DNA of 64,000 nucleotides from the NCBI GenBank assembly GCA_958295525.1, contig OY282355.1:1613504-1677503 (forward strand), in the 5' to 3' direction. This stretch comes from an uncultured Dehalococcoidia bacterium (GTDB lineage: Bacteria > Chloroflexota > Dehalococcoidia > Lucifugimonadales > Australimonadaceae). Each line of letters begins with the position of its first letter. Within the stretch, counting starts at the first letter, position 1. Below the pieces are notes generated by a model that did not search any database, was not told where the DNA came from, and saw only the letters and a program-made list of their open reading frames with translations. Position numbers and translations under genes: made by a program. Shown piece after piece: positions 15,448 through 27,651 of the stretch.

Positions 15448-16500
15448 ATGGCCAACGCCGCCGCGCCCCGCGTCATAGACCTCCGCAGCGACACGCTCAC
15501 CAAGCCAACCGAGGCGATGCGCCGCGCAATGGCGGAGGCGGAGGTGGGCGACGACGTCTACGGCGAAGACCCGACCGTCAACCGGCTGGAGGCCGAGGCC
15601 GCGCGGCTGATGGGCAAGGAGGCGGGACTCTTCGTAACGAGCGGGACGATGGGCAACTTCGTCTCCGCCCTCTCTTGGTGCAACCGCGGCGACGAACTTC
15701 TCTGCGGCGTGGACGCGCACCTTCTCGTCAACGAGATGGGCTCCATCGCGGCGTTCGGCGGCGTCCAGATGCGCGCCCTCCCCAACGACAAGCGCGGCCT
15801 GATGAACCCCGACGACGTCGAGATGGCCGTCCCTCCCGGTGGCTACTTTCCGCGCATGGCGTTGCTGACCATCGAGAACACGCACAACCGGGGCAACGGC
15901 GCGGCCTACACCGTCGAGCAGATGCGGCCTCTCGCGGAAGCCGCCCGCGCCCACGGCATGGCCGTTCACATAGACGGCGCGCGGATATGGAACGCATCCG
16001 TCGCGCTCGGCGTTCCGCCCTCAGAACTGGTATCCGTCGCCGACTCCGTGACCTTCTGCCTCTCGAAGGGGCTTTCGGCGCCCGTCGGCTCCGTCGTGAC
16101 CGGAAGCGCGGAGTTCATCTCGCGGGCGCGGCGCGTCCGCAAGATGGCGGGGGGCGGCCTGCGGCAGGCGGGCGTGCTCGCCGCCGCCGGGCTGGTCGCC
16201 CTCAACGCGATGGTCGACCGCCTCGCCGAAGACCACGCCAACGCCAAACGCCTCGCCGAGGGGCTCGCCGCCATACCAGGCTTCTCCGTGGACCCCGCGG
16301 CCATCGAGACCAACATCGTCTACGCCGAACTCGACGACGGCGACGGCCCCGGAACGGCGGTGCGTCTGCGCGAGCGCGGCGTCCTCTCCAACGGACGCTT
16401 CAACTGGGTGCGCTTCGTTCCGCACTACGGCGTCACCGCCGAGGACATAGACGAGGCGCTCGACGCCGTGGAGTCGGCGGCGCGGGCGGGCGGGCGATGA
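15448..16500 (+). CDS. ltaE: Low-specificity L-threonine aldolase
   Basis: A 350-residue PLP enzyme splitting L-threonine and allo-threonine into glycine and acetaldehyde. It opens VIDLRSDTLTKPTEAMRRAM, then GDDVYGEDPTVNRLE, the family signature; later segments are VHIDGARIWNA and the PLP-lysine region SVTFCLSKGLSAPVGS. The longer frame from 15169 is antisense to lspA and is rejected; the ATG at 15448 has GGA-rich sequence upstream. Its stop overlaps the start of the methyltransferase gene (ATGA). Confidence 0.94.
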   Translation: MANAAAPRVIDLRSDTLTKPTEAMRRAMAEAEVGDDVYGEDPTVNRLEAEAARLMGKEAGLFVTSGTMGNFVSALSWCNRGDELLCGVDAHLLVNEMGSIAAFGGVQMRALPNDKRGLMNPDDVEMAVPPGGYFPRMALLTIENTHNRGNGAAYTVEQMRPLAEAARAHGMAVHIDGARIWNASVALGVPPSELVSVADSVTFCLSKGLSAPVGSVVTGSAEFISRARRVRKMAGGGLRQAGVLAAAGLVALNAMVDRLAEDHANAKRLAEGLAAIPGFSVDPAAIETNIVYAELDDGDGPGTAVRLRERGVLSNGRFNWVRFVPHYGVTAEDIDEALDAVESAARAGGR

Positions 16501-18179
16501 CCGCGGCGAACACGCTCTACTACGGCGACTGCCTCGCCGTGATGGAGGAGATGGATGCCGAGTCCGTTGATCTGATCTACCTCGATCCGCCGTTCAACAG
16601 CAACGCCGACTATCACGCGATCTACAGGGACGAGACGGGCCGCCCGCTTCCCGATCAGGTTGAGGCGTTCGGCGATATGTGGTATCTGGACGCGGCGCGG
16701 GAGCGGGCGGTCTCCGGCCTTCCCGTAATGATGCGCCGCTACGGGCTGGACGACGGCGTCGCCGAACTTTGGCGGCTGTGGGCCAACGCCCTCCGCAAAC
16801 TCAACCCGTCGCTGCTCGCCTACCTCTCCTATATGACGGAGCGGCTCGTCGCTATGCGCCGCCTGCTCAAGCCCGATGGCAGCGTCTACCTGCACTGCGA
16901 CCCCACCGCGAGCCACTATCTCAAAATGGTGATGGACGCGGTCTTCGGCCACCAGAACTTCCGCAACGAAATCATTTGGCGCCGCACGGGGGCGCACGGA
17001 GGGGCGAAACGCTGGGGCCCCATCCACGACACGCTGCTGTTTTACACGAAGTCGGAGACTTACGAGTGGCAGCGCATCCATCAGGGATACGACGATTCCT
17101 ACGTCCGAAACTATTACCGATTCGAGGACAGGCGAGGGCGATTCCGGTACGTTACGCTTACCGGGCAGGGCGTCACTTCGGGAGACTCCGGACGCCCGTG
17201 GCGCGGGGTCGATCCTACCGGCAGCGGTAGGCACTGGGCCGTCCCGAGCGCGGCTCTGAGGAAAGCGTTTCCGAATCTCGACCTGCGCTCCCTCTCCACA
17301 CAGGAGAAACTTGACCTTCTCGATCAAGCGGGGCTCGTCTACTGGCCGCCGCATGGCTCAGTTCCTCAGCAGAAGCGGTATTTGGACGAGAGCCCGGGCG
17401 TTCCCCTGCAAGACATCATCTATGACATACGGCCTATCGGCGCGCATGCCAAGGAGCGTCTCGGTTACGCCACCCAGAAGCCCGTCGCGCTTCTGGAGCG
17501 CGTTATCAGCGCGTCCAGCAAGGAGGGCGACCTCGTGCTTGATCCTTTCTGCGGGTGCGCCACCACCATTGAGGCCGCGCACCGGCTGGGCCGCCGCTGG
17601 ATCGGCATAGACATCGCTATTCACGCCGTCAAGCGCGTCGCCCGCGTCCGCCTCGGCGACCGGCTGGGGCTGCGCGAGGGGATCGAGTACGACATCCAAG
17701 GGATGCCGCGCAACGTGGAAGGCGCCAAAGACCTCTGGCGGCGCGACCCCTACCACTTCCAGAAGTGGGCGGTCGAGCAGGTGGACGGCTTCGTAACGAC
17801 CCGCCGCGCGGCGGACGGCGGCGTGGACGGCCGCCTCTACTTCGCCCTGCCGGACGAGCCCGACCTCCAGAGCATGGTCATTCAGGTGGACGGCGGCGCG
17901 AACGTTCCCATCTCCAAACTGCGCGACCTTCACGGCGCGATGGAGGCGCAGCAGGCGCGGATGGCCGGGTTCATCGTCTTGGAGCCGCTCGGCGAGCGGA
18001 AGCGCCGCAACTTCGAGCAATATATGGCGCAGGCGGGCGACTTGGACGTTCTGGGAACGAAATACCCACGCATGCAGTTGCTGGACGTCGCCGAGATCAT
18101 CGCGGGCGCGGGCTTCCAAACGCCTACGCCTGTCGGGCGCGGCGTCCGCCAGCCCGTAATCCCGGGCATCGGCGGCTAG
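16497..18179 (+). CDS. DNA methyltransferase fused to a nuclease-like domain lacking its Lys
   Basis: A 560-residue protein. The methyltransferase half has DPPFNSN at residue 30 (catalytic motif IV) before DPFCGCATT near 348 (SAM motif I), the order of beta-class N4-cytosine/N6-adenine methylases. Residues about 415-535 resemble the Mrr-like restriction endonuclease domain found fused to these enzymes: RDPYHFQKWA, ADGGVDGRLYF, then IQVDGGANV. The last motif is normally V-K-G-G, and here the catalytic Lys is Asp (near 463). The nuclease is thus probably dead, leaving a solitary methylase. No separate restriction gene is nearby. The start overlaps the aldolase stop. Confidence 0.85.
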   Translation: MTAANTLYYGDCLAVMEEMDAESVDLIYLDPPFNSNADYHAIYRDETGRPLPDQVEAFGDMWYLDAARERAVSGLPVMMRRYGLDDGVAELWRLWANALRKLNPSLLAYLSYMTERLVAMRRLLKPDGSVYLHCDPTASHYLKMVMDAVFGHQNFRNEIIWRRTGAHGGAKRWGPIHDTLLFYTKSETYEWQRIHQGYDDSYVRNYYRFEDRRGRFRYVTLTGQGVTSGDSGRPWRGVDPTGSGRHWAVPSAALRKAFPNLDLRSLSTQEKLDLLDQAGLVYWPPHGSVPQQKRYLDESPGVPLQDIIYDIRPIGAHAKERLGYATQKPVALLERVISASSKEGDLVLDPFCGCATTIEAAHRLGRRWIGIDIAIHAVKRVARVRLGDRLGLREGIEYDIQGMPRNVEGAKDLWRRDPYHFQKWAVEQVDGFVTTRRAADGGVDGRLYFALPDEPDLQSMVIQVDGGANVPISKLRDLHGAMEAQQARMAGFIVLEPLGERKRRNFEQYMAQAGDLDVLGTKYPRMQLLDVAEIIAGAGFQTPTPVGRGVRQPVIPGIGG

Positions 18180-19497: not shown

Positions 19498-20556
19498 ATG
19501 AAAGCCGCCGTGATGCAGGGGATCGACCAAGACCTCGCCATCGAGGAGTTCCGCTCGCCCGACGTTGGCGACGACGACGTGCTCCTGCAAGTGGCCGCCT
19601 GCGGCGTCTGCCACACCGACCTCAAGGTGCAGGACGGCTCCATTCCGACGAGTCTGCCCGCTGTGCTGGGGCACGAGGTCTCCGGCGTCGTCGCGGGCGC
19701 GGGCAAGAACCAGAGCGAGCATTTCAAGGACGGCGACCGCGTCACCGTGGGGATGCGCTTCCGCTGCGGAAGGTGCGAATTCTGCCTCACCGGCCTGCCG
19801 AACCTCTGCCAGCGAATGCCGCTCGGCTCCCCCTACGTCCGGCCCGACGGCGCGGAAGTCACCCGTTGGAACATCGGGGGCTTCACGCAGATGCTCTCCG
19901 TTCCCGCCTATATGGTCTTTCACCTGCCGGACGGCGTCGGGCTCGAAGAGTCCAGCATCGTGGGCTGCCGCGTGACCACCGCCTACAACGCGGTGAAGAA
20001 CGGCGCGCAACTCGCCCCCGGCGAGTCGGCTATGGTCGTCGGATGCGGCGGCGTCGGCCTGAACATCATCCAAATGCTGCGGCTGTTCGGCGCCTACCCC
20101 ATCGTCGCAGTGGACGTCGTGGGGAGCAAGTTGGAGGCCGCGATCTCCTACGGCGCGACCCACATCGTGAACGCATCGTCGGAAGACCCGGTCGAGGCGA
20201 CGATGGAGATCACGAAAGGCGGCGCGCGCAAGACGTTCGAGGCCATCGGCAACCCCGTGACCGCCGACCAAATCGTGCGGGCGACGCGCCCCACCGGCAC
20301 GGCAACCATCGTCGGCGCGATGCCCCCCGGCCCGATCACCATCAACGACTCGCGCTTCCCCTTCAAGGAAATCAAGGTCACGGGCGTGGCGATGCGCCGC
20401 ACCAGCGACGTCGCGGAAGTGCTCGACCTCGTGGCCCAGGGGCGCATCGAATTAGGCTCGTTCATCACCAAACGCTACGGGTTCGAGCAGATCAACGAGG
20501 CGATAGAGGACGTGCACCACGGCGACGTGCTGATGGGCATCACCCTCTGGAACTAG
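19498..20556 (+). CDS. Zinc-dependent alcohol dehydrogenase (MDR family)
   Basis: A 352-residue medium-chain dehydrogenase/reductase. Catalytic zinc ligands are in ACGVCHTDLK and LGHEVSGVV. The structural zinc lobe is present as CGRCEFCLTGLPNLC (C-x2-C-x2-C-x7-C). The cofactor site is MVVGCGGVGLNIIQMLRLFG with a following acidic residue (VAVDVVG), suggesting NAD(H). It oxidises an alcohol or reduces an aldehyde, substrate unknown. GGAAGGAGG lies just before the ATG. It is followed 83 nt later by the DUF427 gene. Confidence 0.9.
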   Translation: MKAAVMQGIDQDLAIEEFRSPDVGDDDVLLQVAACGVCHTDLKVQDGSIPTSLPAVLGHEVSGVVAGAGKNQSEHFKDGDRVTVGMRFRCGRCEFCLTGLPNLCQRMPLGSPYVRPDGAEVTRWNIGGFTQMLSVPAYMVFHLPDGVGLEESSIVGCRVTTAYNAVKNGAQLAPGESAMVVGCGGVGLNIIQMLRLFGAYPIVAVDVVGSKLEAAISYGATHIVNASSEDPVEATMEITKGGARKTFEAIGNPVTADQIVRATRPTGTATIVGAMPPGPITINDSRFPFKEIKVTGVAMRRTSDVAEVLDLVAQGRIELGSFITKRYGFEQINEAIEDVHHGDVLMGITLWN

Positions 20557-20639
20557 GCGGCGGCGGCGGCGCTCCCGCCCTCACGGGAGAACAACGGCAA
20601 GCAACGACTCGTCAGCGAGCGCGACGGAGGAGGACGGCT

Positions 20640-21437
20640 ATGACGCAAGCGTTTAGGGCGCAAGAGGCGGGCGCGGCGAACACGGCGCAGGAGCATCGGG
20701 CCTTCCTGCAGCCGACGCCGAAGCGCATCCGCGTGACCTTCGGCGGCGAAACCATCGCCGACACGACGAACGCGGTCATTATGCACGAGACCCGCCACCA
20801 GCCCGTCTACTACTTCCCCCTGAGCGACGTGCGCTGGGAGTTCCTGGAGGAGACTGCCCACTCCTCCCACTGACCGATCAAGGGAGACGCCCAGTACTGG
20901 AGCGTCAAGGTCGGCGAGCGGGTCGAGGAGAACGCGGTCTGGCGCTACCCGGAGCCGTTGGAGGGCGGCGTGGACGCGCGGGACTACGCCTCCTTCTACT
21001 GGGGCAAGATGGACGCCTGGTTCGAGGAGGAAGAGGAGGTTTTCTCCGGCCCGAAAGACCCCTACACGCGAGTGGACTGCCTCCAAAGTTCCCGCCACGT
21101 CCGCGTCGAAGTGAACGGCGTGACGGTCGCGGAGACGCGCCGCCCCGTGCTGCTGCTGGAGACGGGCCTGCCCCACCGCTACTACATTCCGAGCGCGGAC
21201 GTCCGCATGGACGCGCTCCGCCCAAGCGACCGCGTCGTCGGCTCGCCGTACAAAGGCGAGGCGCAATACCGCCACGTGGACGCGGGGGGCGAGACGTTCG
21301 AGAACATCGCGTGGACGTACCGCTATCCGTCGGCGGAGGCGGCCAAGATCGCCGGCTGCGTCTGCTTCCCGCAAGGCAAGGCCGACGTCTACGTCGACGG
21401 CGCGCTCGAGCCGAAGCCCGTCAGCCGCTGGGACTAG
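20640..21437 (+). CDS. Tandem DUF427 protein with an in-frame UGA codon
   Basis: Two DUF427 domains, each with the pattern RVTFGGETIADT...PVYYFPLSDVRWE. The frame is open from the ATG at 20640 (GGAGGAGG upstream) for 77 codons, meets TGA at 20871-20873, and continues without another stop for 187 codons. The TGA falls in HSSH-x-PIKGDAQYWSV, where family members have Cys (HCPYKG). So it is either a Cys-to-stop mutation, a sequence error, or a selenocysteine codon. A hairpin follows at a bacterial-SECIS-like distance. In the second domain the equivalent Cys is Ser (GSPYKGEAQY). DUF427 function is unknown. If UGA is read as stop, the remainder could start only from weak codons such as TTG 20958. 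Confidence 0.7.
20886..20906 (+). promoter_or_regulatory. Candidate bacterial SECIS hairpin
   Basis: A stem GACGC/GCGTC plus CCA/TGG with one bulged A encloses the loop GTAC (20894-20897). The loop starts 20 nt after the UGA and has G as its first base, both within the loose bacterial SECIS model (loop about 16-37 nt after UGA, G in the first two loop positions). In GC-rich coding sequence such hairpins also arise by chance. Confidence 0.35.
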
Positions 21438-22236: not shown

Positions 22237-24123
22237 TTACGCCTGCGCGAGCGCGGGCTCCGGCAACTCGTCGTCGAACTCGTTGGCCGGGGCGTATTCG
22301 CGTTTCGCGCCGGAGGCCGCGAGGCGCGCGTGCAATTCGTACTGCTTGGCGTACAGCCCGCCGAGCGCGACCAGTTCGTCGTGGTCGCCCGCCTCCACGA
22401 TGCGCCCCTGCTCCATCACGACGATTTTGTCGGCGTTGCGTATCGTGGAAAGCCGGTGCGCGATGACGATGGCGGTGCGCCCATAGAGCATCTTGCCGAT
22501 CGCCTGCTGGATGAGTTGCTCCGTGCGGGTGTCCACGCTCGCGGTCGCCTCGTCCAGCACGATGATGCGCGGGTCGGCGACGAGGGCGCGCGCGAAACTG
22601 ACTAGTTGCCGCTGGCCGAGGCTCATATTGCCGCCGCGCTCCTCCATCATCGTGTCGTAGCCGTCGGGGAGGCTGGTCACGTGGGCGTGCAGGTCGACGG
22701 CTTTCGCGGCGCCGCGCACTTGCTCGTCGCTCGCTTCGGGGTGGTTGTAGCGGATGTTGTCCGTTATCGTGCCGGAGAATTGGAACGGCTCTTGCAGCAC
22801 GATGCCCATCTGACGGGCGAGGGAAGCGCGGGTGACGGAGCGGACGTCGCGCCCGTCCACCGTGACGCGCCCGCCGGAGACGTCGTAGAAGCGCGAGACG
22901 AGCGCGGCCATCGTCGTTTTGCCCGCGCCGGTGCGCCCCACGAACGCGACCGTCGTTCCGGGCTCGATGTCGAGGCACACGTTCCGCAGCACAGGCTTGC
23001 CGGGCTCGTACTCGAACGAGACGTCCTCGTAGCGCACCGCTCCGGCGATAGGGGGCATCTCCTCGGCGTCGGGCGCGTCCACGAGGTCGGGCTGCGTGTC
23101 CAGCAGGTCGAATATCCGCGCCCCGGACGCCATCGCCCGTTGCAATTGCGTGAACTGCATCGTGAGGCTGCGGATCGGATCGAAGAACCGCTGAATGTAG
23201 AGGGTGAACTGGACGAGTTGCCCGCTCCCCAGCAGGCCGCCCAGCACGAGCCTTCCGCCGAAGACGATGGTCGCCGCGAGCCCGAACGACATAAACATTT
23301 CCACGACCGGCATCAGCGACGAGGAGAGTCGCTGCGCCCGCAGGTTCGTGTCGAGGTGTTTGTAGTTGAGATCGTCGAACTCCTCGAGGTTTTTCTTCTG
23401 CCGGTTCATGCTCTGCACGACGCGCACGCCGTCCAGATTTTCGGCGAGCGAGGCGTTCACGCGCGAGATGGCGACCCGCACGCGCAGGAACGCCGGGCGC
23501 GCGTGCTTCTGCCATACGTAGATGATGCCGATCAATACGGGGAGCGCGGCGAACGAGAGCGCGGACAGCCTCGCGTTGGTGACGAGCATAATTGCGATGA
23601 TGCCCGTCAGGCTCAGCAGGTCGGCGATGCTGAGCACGACGATGTCCAGGAACTCTTGCAACTGATAGACGTCGTTCTGCGCCCGCGACATTATGGAGCC
23701 GACTTTGTGGCGGTTGTGGAACGACATCGGAAGCCGCTGCAGATGCTGGAACAACTCGTTCCGCAGGTCGTAGATCACGCGCTGGCTCACCCGCGCCAGC
23801 AGCGCCTGATGGATGTAGTTGGCCGCGTAGTGCACGACGAGCACGCCGGCGAAGAGCATCGCGAGCGTGTTCAGGCCGGAGAGGTCGCCGTTGGAAATGT
23901 AGCGGTCTATCCCTACCGCGATGATGGCCGGTATCGCCACCGTCGCCATCGTGTAGACGAGCACCGCCGCGAGGCTGAGGAGCACGGCGCCCCGGTAAGG
24001 CCCCGCGTAGCGCAGCAGCCGCATAACGACGCGCTGATCGTAGAGCCGCGTTCCGTCCTCGTCTATGTCTCCGGAGCGGCCTCGCATCAGCCAGTTGCCG
24101 CCCCCGCCGCTGTTCATCATCAT
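22237..24123 (-). CDS. ABC exporter half-transporter, consensus ATPase subunit
   Basis: A 628-residue protein with six membrane helices (about 45-325) followed by an ATPase domain: Walker A GRTGAGKTT (396-404), Walker B IVLDEAT with catalytic Glu525, H-loop His556. The signature is MSLGQ (500-504), not LSGGQ. With its 4-nt-overlapping partner it forms the asymmetric pair known from heterodimeric exporters such as TM287/288: this subunit brings the catalytic Glu, the partner the canonical signature. The cargo may be lipid or drug; it is not predictable. Confidence 0.92.
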   Translation of the reverse strand: MMMNSGGGGNWLMRGRSGDIDEDGTRLYDQRVVMRLLRYAGPYRGAVLLSLAAVLVYTMATVAIPAIIAVGIDRYISNGDLSGLNTLAMLFAGVLVVHYAANYIHQALLARVSQRVIYDLRNELFQHLQRLPMSFHNRHKVGSIMSRAQNDVYQLQEFLDIVVLSIADLLSLTGIIAIMLVTNARLSALSFAALPVLIGIIYVWQKHARPAFLRVRVAISRVNASLAENLDGVRVVQSMNRQKKNLEEFDDLNYKHLDTNLRAQRLSSSLMPVVEMFMSFGLAATIVFGGRLVLGGLLGSGQLVQFTLYIQRFFDPIRSLTMQFTQLQRAMASGARIFDLLDTQPDLVDAPDAEEMPPIAGAVRYEDVSFEYEPGKPVLRNVCLDIEPGTTVAFVGRTGAGKTTMAALVSRFYDVSGGRVTVDGRDVRSVTRASLARQMGIVLQEPFQFSGTITDNIRYNHPEASDEQVRGAAKAVDLHAHVTSLPDGYDTMMEERGGNMSLGQRQLVSFARALVADPRIIVLDEATASVDTRTEQLIQQAIGKMLYGRTAIVIAHRLSTIRNADKIVVMEQGRIVEAGDHDELVALGGLYAKQYELHARLAASGAKREYAPANEFDDELPEPALAQA

Positions 24124-25913
24124 AGCGCGCCGCTCCGCAGCGGAACCGCCCGCGCGCGGACGGCGGCCGTTCCGTTGAGACTCGTGGCGTACTGCAACTC
24201 CGTTACGTGGGTGAACAGCCCGCCCGACGCGATCAACTCGTCGGGCGTTCCCATCTCGCCGATTTCGCCGTCTTGCATCACGACGACCAGCCCCGCGTGG
24301 CGAATGGACGACAGCCGGTGCGCGATGATGAACGTCGTCCTGCCGCGCACGACCTCCGCCATCGCGTCTTGAATGCGCGACTCCGTGCCCGCGTCCACGC
24401 TGGACGTCGAGTCGTCGAGCACGAGGATCGGCGGATCGAGCGCGAGCGTCCGGGCGATGGAGAGCCGCTGCCGCTGCCCGCCGGAGAGCGACACGCCCCG
24501 CTCGCCGATGACCGTCTCGTATCCGTCCGGCATGGCCTCAATCTCGTCGTGAATCTGCGCCGTTTTCGCCGCGGCGACGATTTCGTCCATAGACGCGCCT
24601 TCCCGTCCGTAGGCGATGTTCTCCGCCACCGTCGCGCTGAAGAGGAAGACGTCTTGCTGCACGACGCCGATGGCCGACCGCAGCGAGGGCAGCGTGAACT
24701 CGCGCACGTCCGCGCCGTCTATCGTGACGCGCCCGCCGTCGACGTCGTAGAAGCGCGCCAGCAGGCTCATCAGCGTCGTTTTGCCGGAGCCCGGCGCGCC
24801 CATCAGCGCGACCGCCTGGCCGGGCGCCGCTTCGAACGACACTTTCCGCACGGCGTCGCGTCCGCCGTAGCCGAACGAGACGTTCTCGAACCGCACGCGC
24901 CCGCGCACGTTCCGCAGCGGAACCGCCCCCGGCGACTCGCTCACCGGCGACTCCGCATCCAGCACGGCGAACAGCCGCTCGCCCGCCGACGCCGCCCGCG
25001 CGAACGTGTTGACGAGGAACCCCACCATGCGGATCGGCTGCACCAGCAGGCTGATGTACAGCAGGAACTCCGTCAGTTCCCCCGGCGTCATCCGCCCGTC
25101 GATCACCGCCCGCCCCCCGAACCACAGAATCACTCCCGACGACGCCCAGAAAATCATCTGCATCAGCGAGGTGTTGAACGATTGCGCCAGATTCACGCGG
25201 TAGGCGCGCTCGAACACCGTGCGGTTCTGCGCCTCGAACTTGGCTTCTTCGTGCGCCTCCGCCCCGAACGCCTTGACGACGCGCTGCCCCGACAGGTTCT
25301 CCTGCAGCACGGTCGTCAGTTTGCCCATTTCGATCTGCGTCTGCAGCCACATACGGCGCATCCGCCTGCTCGCCCACACCGCCCTCGCGCCGATCAGAGG
25401 CGCGAACAGCAGGCTGATGAACGCCAGCGGAACGTCGGTCAGCAGCATCATCGCGGCGGCGCCGAGCGTGAGAATCGTGATCTGCCCGGAGCGGATCAGC
25501 CCCATGCTCACGAACATCCGCATCATCTCCACGTCGATCGTGGCTTTCGACATCAGGTTGCCCGTGTGCTCGCGGTCGTGGAACGCGAAACTCAGCCGCT
25601 GGAGTTTGTCGTAGAGCAACCCGCGCACGCGGTAGGCGACGCGCTGCGACACGGCCTCCGCCATATACAGATTGACGTAGTTGAACACGCCTCGCGCCGC
25701 GACGACGCCGATGATCAGCAGCCCCAGCGTCAGGAGATAGCCCGTGTCCGCCTGCTCGGCGCCGGTCCCGAGCGCCGCGTCCACCGACCTCCCGATGATG
25801 CGGGGCACGGCCAGGAACAGCCCGGTCGCCGCGAAGAGCGACGCCCAGGCGACGGCGAGCCGCCACCGATCGAGGGCGGCCAACTTCGTTATTCGCCAGA
25901 GGATTCTTCGCAT
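24120..25913 (-). CDS. ABC exporter half-transporter, degenerate ATPase subunit
   Basis: A 597-residue protein with six membrane helices and an ATPase domain: Walker A GAPGSGKTT (372-380), canonical LSGGQ (476-480), H-loop His532. The Walker B ends LVLDDST, so the catalytic Glu is Asp501, making this the subunit with the degenerate site. It is first in the operon; its stop overlaps the partner's start by 4 nt, ensuring equal synthesis. Confidence 0.92.
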   Translation of the reverse strand: MRRILWRITKLAALDRWRLAVAWASLFAATGLFLAVPRIIGRSVDAALGTGAEQADTGYLLTLGLLIIGVVAARGVFNYVNLYMAEAVSQRVAYRVRGLLYDKLQRLSFAFHDREHTGNLMSKATIDVEMMRMFVSMGLIRSGQITILTLGAAAMMLLTDVPLAFISLLFAPLIGARAVWASRRMRRMWLQTQIEMGKLTTVLQENLSGQRVVKAFGAEAHEEAKFEAQNRTVFERAYRVNLAQSFNTSLMQMIFWASSGVILWFGGRAVIDGRMTPGELTEFLLYISLLVQPIRMVGFLVNTFARAASAGERLFAVLDAESPVSESPGAVPLRNVRGRVRFENVSFGYGGRDAVRKVSFEAAPGQAVALMGAPGSGKTTLMSLLARFYDVDGGRVTIDGADVREFTLPSLRSAIGVVQQDVFLFSATVAENIAYGREGASMDEIVAAAKTAQIHDEIEAMPDGYETVIGERGVSLSGGQRQRLSIARTLALDPPILVLDDSTSSVDAGTESRIQDAMAEVVRGRTTFIIAHRLSSIRHAGLVVVMQDGEIGEMGTPDELIASGGLFTHVTELQYATSLNGTAAVRARAVPLRSGAL

Positions 25914-25995: not shown

Positions 25996-27651
25996 TCACA
26001 CTTCCATTGGGACGGTGAGGATCATTGGGCGGCGGCGGGTCTCTTTGTAAAGGAAGCGGCCCATCGCCTCGCGGACGCGGCCGCCTACGGAGTCTTCGTC
26101 GAGCGGGTCGAGGTTGGGCGCGCGGAGGGCTTCGGCGGCGACGGCGGCGGCGCGCTCCATCAGTTCCTCGCCCTCGCCCGGCGCGGCGAAGCCGCTGGAG
26201 ACGACCTCCGGCTCGCCGTAGACTTTGCCGGTGGCGCGGTCGACGGGAACGACGACGACGAGGAAGCCGTCGCGGGAGAGCATTCGGCGGTCGCGGAGAA
26301 CGGCGTCGCCCACGTCCCAGATGCGGAGGCCGTCGACGTAGACGTGGCCTGCGGGAACGCGGTCGGTCACGCGCGCGCCGCCGGCGTCTATTTCGAGGAC
26401 GTCGCCGTCTTCGAGAATGACGACGTTTTCGGGGGCGACGCCGGCGAGGCGGGCGAGGTTGGCGTGCGCGGCGAGCATGCGGTATTCGCCGTGCACGGGG
26501 ACGAAGTGCCGCGGCTGCATCAGGCGGAGCATCAGTTTGAGTTCCTCTTGGCTCGCGTGGCCGGGGACGTGGACGCCGGGGGCGGTGGCGCGGGTGAGCG
26601 CTTTGACGCCGCGCCGCGCGAGTTTGTCCACGACGGAGGAGATGACGGTTTCGTTGCCGGGAATGGCTGATGCGGAGAGGACGACGGTGTCGCTTTCCTG
26701 GAGGGCGATGTCGCGGTGGGCGTTGTTGGCGACGCGGGAGAGGACGGAGAGGGGCTCGCCTTGCGCGCCGGTGAGGACGATGACTTGCCGGTCGAGCGGA
26801 AGCGCGGCGAGGGCGCGCAGGTCAAGGAGCGCGCCGGAGGGCGCGTTCAGGTAGCCCTTCGCGGCGGCCATCTGCACGTTGTCGATCATAGAGCGTCCGG
26901 CGGGGGCGACCTTGCGCCCGTGCTTCACTGCGGCGTCGAGCGTTTGCTGAACGCGGGCGATGAGGGACGCGAAGGTGGCGATGAGCACGCGCCCCTCGGC
27001 GGCGCCGACGACGTGATCAAGCGCGGTGGAGACGACGCTCTCGGAGGGCGTGTAGCCCGGGTTTTCGGCGTAGGTGGAGTCGGAGAGAAGGAGCAGGACG
27101 CCCTCGGCGCCGAGTTGGGCGAGGCGCTGCAGGTCGGTGGGGCGTCCGTCCACGGGCGTGTGGTCTATCTTGAAGTCGCCGGTGTGGACGACGAGGCCGG
27201 CGGGGGTGCGGAGGGCGATGCCGCAAGCGTCGGGGATGCTGTGGCAGACGCGGAAGTATTCGGCTTCTATGCCGCCGAGCCGGATGACGCCGCCCGCGTC
27301 AATTTCGTTCAGTTCGCAGCCGGTGACGCGGCGCTGGCGCAGTTTGACGTCGATGAGGTCGCGCGCGAGGGGCGGCGCGTAGACGGGGACGCGAAGCCTT
27401 TGCAGCAGATGGGGGAGCGCGCCGGTGTGGTCTTCGTGGCCGTGCGTCACCAGAACGGCGCGGACGCGGTCGGCGTTGGCGAAGAGGTAGGAGGCGTCGG
27501 GGAGCACGAGGTCGACGCCGAGCATATCGGCTTTGGGGAACATCAGCCCGGCGTCTATGACGACGATGTCGTCTCCGCATTCGACGCAGAGCATATTCTT
27601 GCCGACCTCGCCGAGGCCGCCGAGAGGGATGACGCGGAGGGGAGGGGGCAT
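25996..27651 (-). CDS. rnj: Ribonuclease J
   Basis: A 551-residue metallo-beta-lactamase/beta-CASP nuclease with 5'-to-3' exo- and endonuclease activity in mRNA decay and rRNA maturation. Motifs: VLVTHGHEDHTGALP (zinc ligands at 70-75), GDFKIDHTPVDG, LLSDSTYAENPG and FVPVHGEYRMLAAHANLA. The length and C-terminal domain are typical. The start lies 1 nt after the stop of the UDG gene, so translation is coupled. Confidence 0.95.
   Translation of the reverse strand: MPPPLRVIPLGGLGEVGKNMLCVECGDDIVVIDAGLMFPKADMLGVDLVLPDASYLFANADRVRAVLVTHGHEDHTGALPHLLQRLRVPVYAPPLARDLIDVKLRQRRVTGCELNEIDAGGVIRLGGIEAEYFRVCHSIPDACGIALRTPAGLVVHTGDFKIDHTPVDGRPTDLQRLAQLGAEGVLLLLSDSTYAENPGYTPSESVVSTALDHVVGAAEGRVLIATFASLIARVQQTLDAAVKHGRKVAPAGRSMIDNVQMAAAKGYLNAPSGALLDLRALAALPLDRQVIVLTGAQGEPLSVLSRVANNAHRDIALQESDTVVLSASAIPGNETVISSVVDKLARRGVKALTRATAPGVHVPGHASQEELKLMLRLMQPRHFVPVHGEYRMLAAHANLARLAGVAPENVVILEDGDVLEIDAGGARVTDRVPAGHVYVDGLRIWDVGDAVLRDRRMLSRDGFLVVVVPVDRATGKVYGEPEVVSSGFAAPGEGEELMERAAAVAAEALRAPNLDPLDEDSVGGRVREAMGRFLYKETRRRPMILTVPMEV

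Follow-up and report, generated by a model that had tools for sequence, protein, structure and literature searches.

A tandem DUF427 gene of an uncultured Dehalococcoidia bacterium, with UGA in place of a conserved cysteine, probably encodes a selenoprotein

What does the in-frame UGA in a tandem DUF427 gene of an uncultured Dehalococcoidia bacterium stand for? Our analysis of the window, by which we mean the whole stretch of 64,000 nucleotides, and of the homologues of this gene indicates that the product is very probably a two-domain DUF427 selenoprotein in which UGA78 is decoded as selenocysteine (Sec). Demonstrated at the level of sequence are the UGA and its conservation, its Cys counterparts, the sel genes, and selection on both protein and RNA. 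The candidate selenoprotein of the original prediction is thereby strongly supported, by the machinery, by UGA in 30 genomes, by the Cys counterparts, by selection and by the hairpin. Very probably it belongs to a new selenoprotein family of a well-known kind, absent from the published lists that we checked. The features concerned are as follows.

19498..20556, + strand: zinc-dependent alcohol dehydrogenase (MDR) gene directly 5' of the predicted Sec gene; a neighbour without a role in the Sec mechanism
20626..20633, + strand: Shine-Dalgarno-like GGAGGAGG, 6 nt 5' of the ATG
20640..21437, + strand: tandem DUF427 gene, 266 codons including the internal UGA and the terminal TAG; predicted full-length product of 265 aa with Sec78
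20727..21002, + strand: DUF427 domain 1 (Pfam; AlphaFold2 model pLDDT 91), which carries the predicted Sec78
20871..20873, + strand: UGA codon 78, predicted Sec codon, aligned with the Cys of the C-P-x-K-G motif
20874..20914, + strand: span of the outer helix of the predicted SECIS, in which 20874-20879 pairs with 20909-20914; from the single-sequence MFE fold of the window, absent from some orthologues
20886..20906, + strand: SECIS-like apical hairpin of bacterial type; loop GUAC at 20894-20897, stem 20886-20893/20898-20906 interrupted by a single bulged base
21099..21371, + strand: DUF427 domain 2, with Ser at the equivalent of the Cys (SPYKG)

The frame 20640-21437 on the + strand starts with ATG, ends with TAG and holds, as predicted, a single internal stop, the TGA at codon 78 (20871-20873). 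That it stays open past this codon with full DUF427 sequence is borne out by Pfam, which finds two DUF427 domains ahead of the TAG: PF04248 (DUF427, named NTP_transf_9) is matched twice by the read-through product, at 216.7 bits against a gathering score of 22.1 (2.6e-65), and is its sole Pfam match at E <= 0.001, with no match to the MsrB profile. Matches to Leucyl-tRNA synthetase at E about 0.001 were set aside as weak and partial; a 38% match to a phage record was also noted. The motif in the window gene reads S-H-*-P-I-K-G, compared with H-C-P-x-K-G in homologues, most of which also keep the Cys of domain 2 that is Ser here. An AGGAGG-like sequence precedes the ATG in several UGA orthologues as well. 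The same genome has a second tandem DUF427 gene (G000 C1:1225559-1226272; L013, L014), without internal stop, in which the CPxKG Cys is lost in domain 1 and kept in domain 2 (SRCAYKG), the opposite of what the window gene shows.

The UGA is shared widely among homologues. A search of 395 relatives gave 37 genomes with a match at E <= 1e-20, and TGA in the same column, as the sole stop in the match, was present in 18 two-domain genes including that of the window (14 of the window clade and four of family f28). Because two single-domain DUF427 genes of family f47 (L135 and L136, in genomes G255 and G313) carry TGA in the Cys column too, the predicted Sec form is not confined to tandem proteins. 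A scan of reference genomes added two UGA genes, both from Nitrospinota, and when 193 relatives of one of these Nitrospinota genomes were searched, the count for that phylum rose to ten genomes, all with TGA, for a total of 30 genomes (20 SAR202-type Dehalococcoidia and 10 Nitrospinota). The original prediction had placed the UGA where DUF427 proteins have a conserved Cys, and Cys indeed occupies the column in 69 aligned homologous loci, a few of them second copies within one genome; the remaining loci have Ser, Asp, Ala or a gap, and none of the aligned loci has TAA or TAG there. Codon 78 of close homologues, a check proposed at the outset, is thus not Cys alone: the UGA is retained in orthologues, and those of the window's own clade are 53-77% identical to its product over the full length. 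One contig labelled Rhodospirillaceae, L059 (PBOV01000133.1), is 94-100% identical to the SAR202 contig L058 in all shared ORFs and is probably mis-binned.

Is the host equipped to read UGA as Sec? The original prediction had noted that selA, selB, selD and selC are lacking in the window, which is correct for the window and does not hold for the genome, a single contig of 2.51 Mb in which tRNA-Sec, selA (499 bits), selB (341 bits) and selD (370 bits) were all found when the proposed genome-wide search was run. The tRNA-Sec(UCA) scores 71.8 bits and is called SeC(tca) by ARAGORN, the next-best matches being ordinary tRNA-Ser genes. The host selD (G000 C1:230609-231529, L022) has an in-frame TGA of its own at the catalytic position of the active site (TLASCAG*AGKF), by which the selenophosphate synthetase is itself a predicted selenoprotein; this internal control argues that UGA is used for Sec in the host genome. 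Since TGA also terminates selB, selD and the window ORFs 24120-25913 and 25996-27651 in the ordinary way, the codon has not been reassigned. Across genomes, a test of 22 of the 30 UGA genomes (all but eight from Nitrospinota) put selA above the cut-off in every one, the host and 21/21 others, as against 11/16 homologue-bearing non-UGA genomes; all five genomes that lack selA are non-UGA (p about 0.01, hypergeometric formula, by hand). Near the tRNA-Sec, at L009:1610-7283, lie two ORFs of about 820 residues each, side by side and nearly identical, membrane-protein-like and with a capsid-like ORF fragment between them, which suggests a recent tandem duplication.

Downstream of the UGA, the hairpin at 20886-20906 was recovered in the window's own fold as originally described, its loop GUAC (20894-20897) lying 20 nt past the UGA with G first, and this fold is more stable than about 98% of synonymous recodings. 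The published bSECIS model sets a loop of 3-9 nt, G in the first two loop positions, a spacing of 16-37 nt, a stem of at least 4 bp and an MFE <= -7.5 (PMC13188914). The fit to a loose bacterial SECIS model that had been claimed for the window stands if one bulge is permitted, and only then; it is weak evidence when taken alone, because in a strict bulge-free scan not only 23 of 28 UGA loci but also 43 of 66 Cys loci (about 65%) pass. Rfam has no matching family within the gene at 20640-21437. More telling is the comparison with synonymous recodings that keep the protein, in which the mean z of hairpin stability is -1.89 for UGA genes (18 loci) and -0.39 for Cys genes (66 loci), with a Mann-Whitney p of 8e-8 that is uncorrected for kinship among sequences that are not independent. 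Selection for stability is therefore seen in the UGA genes but not in their Cys counterparts, which answers the proposed check on hairpin conservation. Among 13 UGA orthologues, moreover, synonymous identity is 0.72 at codons 79-91 and 0.52 elsewhere (p = 0.001), with a peak of 0.78 at codons 84-91, within the hairpin.

The form of the hairpin differs between groups. In the window clade, it spans 21 nt from 13 nt past the UGA (GACGCYC-AGUAYUG-GAGCGUC); one of its seven pairs is compensatory, C-G being replaced by U-A in three orthologues, five are invariant, and the remaining one is C-A in four sequences, that of the window among them. The window's own fold has a bulged A instead and presents the GUAC loop. 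The f28 hairpin (GGCCAG-GUA-CUGGUC) has a register different from that of the window clade, and the main conserved hairpin of Nitrospinota (GCGUCC-UAYU-GGACGC) has a register of its own and lacks the usual loop G.

Selection on the protein extends beyond the UGA. Between the window gene and L026, dN/dS values are 0.20/0.53 before the UGA, 0.10/0.51 just after it and 0.12/0.71 in the second domain, and in comparisons with congeners dN stays far lower than dS before and after the codon alike. Purifying selection past the UGA implies that the region after it is translated.

Could the TGA nonetheless be something other than a Sec codon? A pseudogene made by nonsense mutation, or a sequencing or assembly error over a true Cys codon, would give the same picture in any one genome by a single base change, and both had been raised in the original prediction. 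However, the same UGA recurs in 30 independently assembled genomes, at the identities given above within the window's own clade and again in a second phylum. Since orthologues from independent assemblies share it, a read error is ruled out and a recent nonsense mutation excluded; a simple nonsense mutation of any age is made very unlikely by this spread and by the purifying selection downstream, UAA and UAG never taking the place of UGA in the column. We consider the chance that either accounts for the gene to be negligible. Two separate products, namely a short domain-1 fragment ending at UGA78 and a domain 2 made by reinitiation, might be imagined from the open frame past the UGA and its possible internal starts (TTG at 20958), but the P-I-K-G-D-A-Q-Y-W segment right after the UGA would then go untranslated although it is among the most conserved, with dN below that upstream. 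The UGA, furthermore, sits in mid-domain on the Cys column, and its preference over UAA and UAG would lack an explanation, making this arrangement very improbable.

Decoding of the UGA as Trp, Cys or Gly, through a changed code or near-cognate readthrough and without Sec, draws on the context of the codon, as UGAC is leaky as a stop in enterobacteria. Yet UGA terminates other genes of the same genome, that genome has a genuine tRNA-Sec together with sel genes, and a reassigned codon would have no need of a selected hairpin; we regard such decoding as extremely improbable. Decoding as Sec is thus the reading that we prefer, and we infer that Sec is actually inserted at codon 78. In the mechanism that we propose, SelA would make Sec on tRNA-Sec(UCA) from selenophosphate supplied by SelD, and SelB, bound to the hairpin just 3' of the codon, would bring the Sec-tRNA to the ribosome and decode UGA78 as Sec, so that translation would continue past it to the 265-aa product. 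Sec78 would stand in for the conserved Cys in the hairpin turn that domain 1 forms at C-P-x-K-G, as the probable reactive residue of an enzyme acting by redox or nucleophilic chemistry. As the equivalent Cys of domain 2 has been lost, it is domain 1 that would hold the active selenol, presumably the single reactive one of the protein.

How often Sec and Cys have been exchanged can be judged from a tree of 79 DUF427 proteins. The window clade of 14 is entirely of the Sec type (support 100/99). The tree prefers five Sec/Cys changes, of which at least two are forced by well-supported branches, and the Nitrospinota Sec proteins are placed among alphaproteobacterial Cys proteins, apart from Dehalococcoidia. 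Repeated exchange between Sec and Cys, in whichever direction, is the best-supported account of these sequences.

What kind of enzyme might this be? In the AlphaFold2 model (pLDDT 91), Sec78 lies at the end of the strand 69-78, before the turn into the strand 82-91. In structure comparison, the model aligns with 3DJM, a DUF427 protein (Foldseek E 3e-9; VIA Z 18.4), with weaker matches to Mis18/yippee (Z 8.3-9.2) and, at about Z 6, to the C-terminal domain of RIG-I; MsrB is not among the structural matches listed, a listing that is no evidence of its absence. The matches agree with the published grouping of DUF427 with MsrB and Gfa in the beta-tent fold, DUF427 being without a zinc site (PMC4287342). 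A Sec-dependent redox or nucleophilic enzyme of the beta-tent fold would agree with these features, and redox chemistry is likely for the DUF427 Sec protein, whatever its substrate. We know of no DUF427 protein whose function has been established.

The alcohol dehydrogenase (ADH) gene at 19498-20556 is possibly co-transcribed with the predicted Sec gene. It lies directly 5' of it in five species of the genus (the window and four others), 88-90% identical, and its nearest NCBIfam models, all below cut-off, include NDMA-dependent ADH, mycothiol-dependent formaldehyde DH and class III ADH. One might picture the Sec domain and this zinc ADH acting together on thiol-aldehyde adducts, in analogy to Gfa and class III ADH, rather than the Sec protein being a peroxide or disulfide reductase; the conserved adjacency, the formaldehyde DH and class III models and the beta-tent fold that Gfa, MsrB and DUF427 have in common (PMC4287342) would fit such a partnership. 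However, gene neighbourhoods across clades reveal no deep functional linkage, the ADH being absent beside the Sec gene in most other UGA clades, MDR dehydrogenases are common, and DUF427 lacks a zinc site (PMC4287342), so that we deem the idea unlikely. Zinc ADH genes 35-38% identical to that of the window also lie divergently beside Cys-type DUF427 genes in L044, L045 and L048, from which a wider ADH-DUF427 link is possible. Further upstream, the long ORF at window 15675-18179 is similar in its later part to a site-specific DNA methyltransferase (DPPFNS motif).

Eukaryotic MsrB1 uses Sec. Among known systems, the DUF427 protein compares as follows. With 3DJM from Rhodobacter sphaeroides (DUF427, PF04248), the window gene product shares its family by profile, fold and sequence match, and the Cys of CPLKG in 3DJM aligns with the Cys/Sec column; 3DJM and most DUF427 members have Cys, whereas the window gene has a predicted Sec and two tandem domains. 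With MsrB/selenoprotein R, Mis18/yippee, the RIG-I CTD, Mss4 and Gfa it has the beta-tent fold in common; unlike MsrB, it has no detectable MsrB sequence match, and DUF427 has no zinc site (PMC4287342). The in-frame UGA at a conserved Cys, the Cys homologues, the downstream hairpin and SelA/SelB/SelD/tRNA-Sec are all shared with known bacterial selenoproteins (PMC13188914). The 2026 inventory, with its 119 prokaryotic selenoprotein families and subfamilies (PMC13188914), lists neither DUF427 nor PF04248, and the family is not among the new ones of deep-Sep; for GOS_A-C, no domain match is described. NCBIfam release 20 contains no DUF427 model, and in the open-licence literature we found no paper on DUF427 as a selenoprotein, a report elsewhere being possible. 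We lean towards a broader view of DUF427 as a new selenoenzyme class of the beta-tent fold, distinct from MsrB, in which Cys gave way to Sec at least twice independently (in Dehalococcoidia and in Nitrospinota) with hairpins in three registers, and in which the Sec site would be the active centre of the whole family.

Our analysis thus adds a predicted selenoprotein family in SAR202-type Dehalococcoidia and Nitrospinota, on whose selenoproteins we found little literature. Automatic annotation will probably cut the DUF427 UGA genes short, or in two, at the UGA. A structure has been solved for DUF427, a family of unknown function that occurs in bacteria and fungi. As Sec marks reactive residues, codon 78 shows where the active site of DUF427 is likely to lie, and with that site located the function of the family would become testable.
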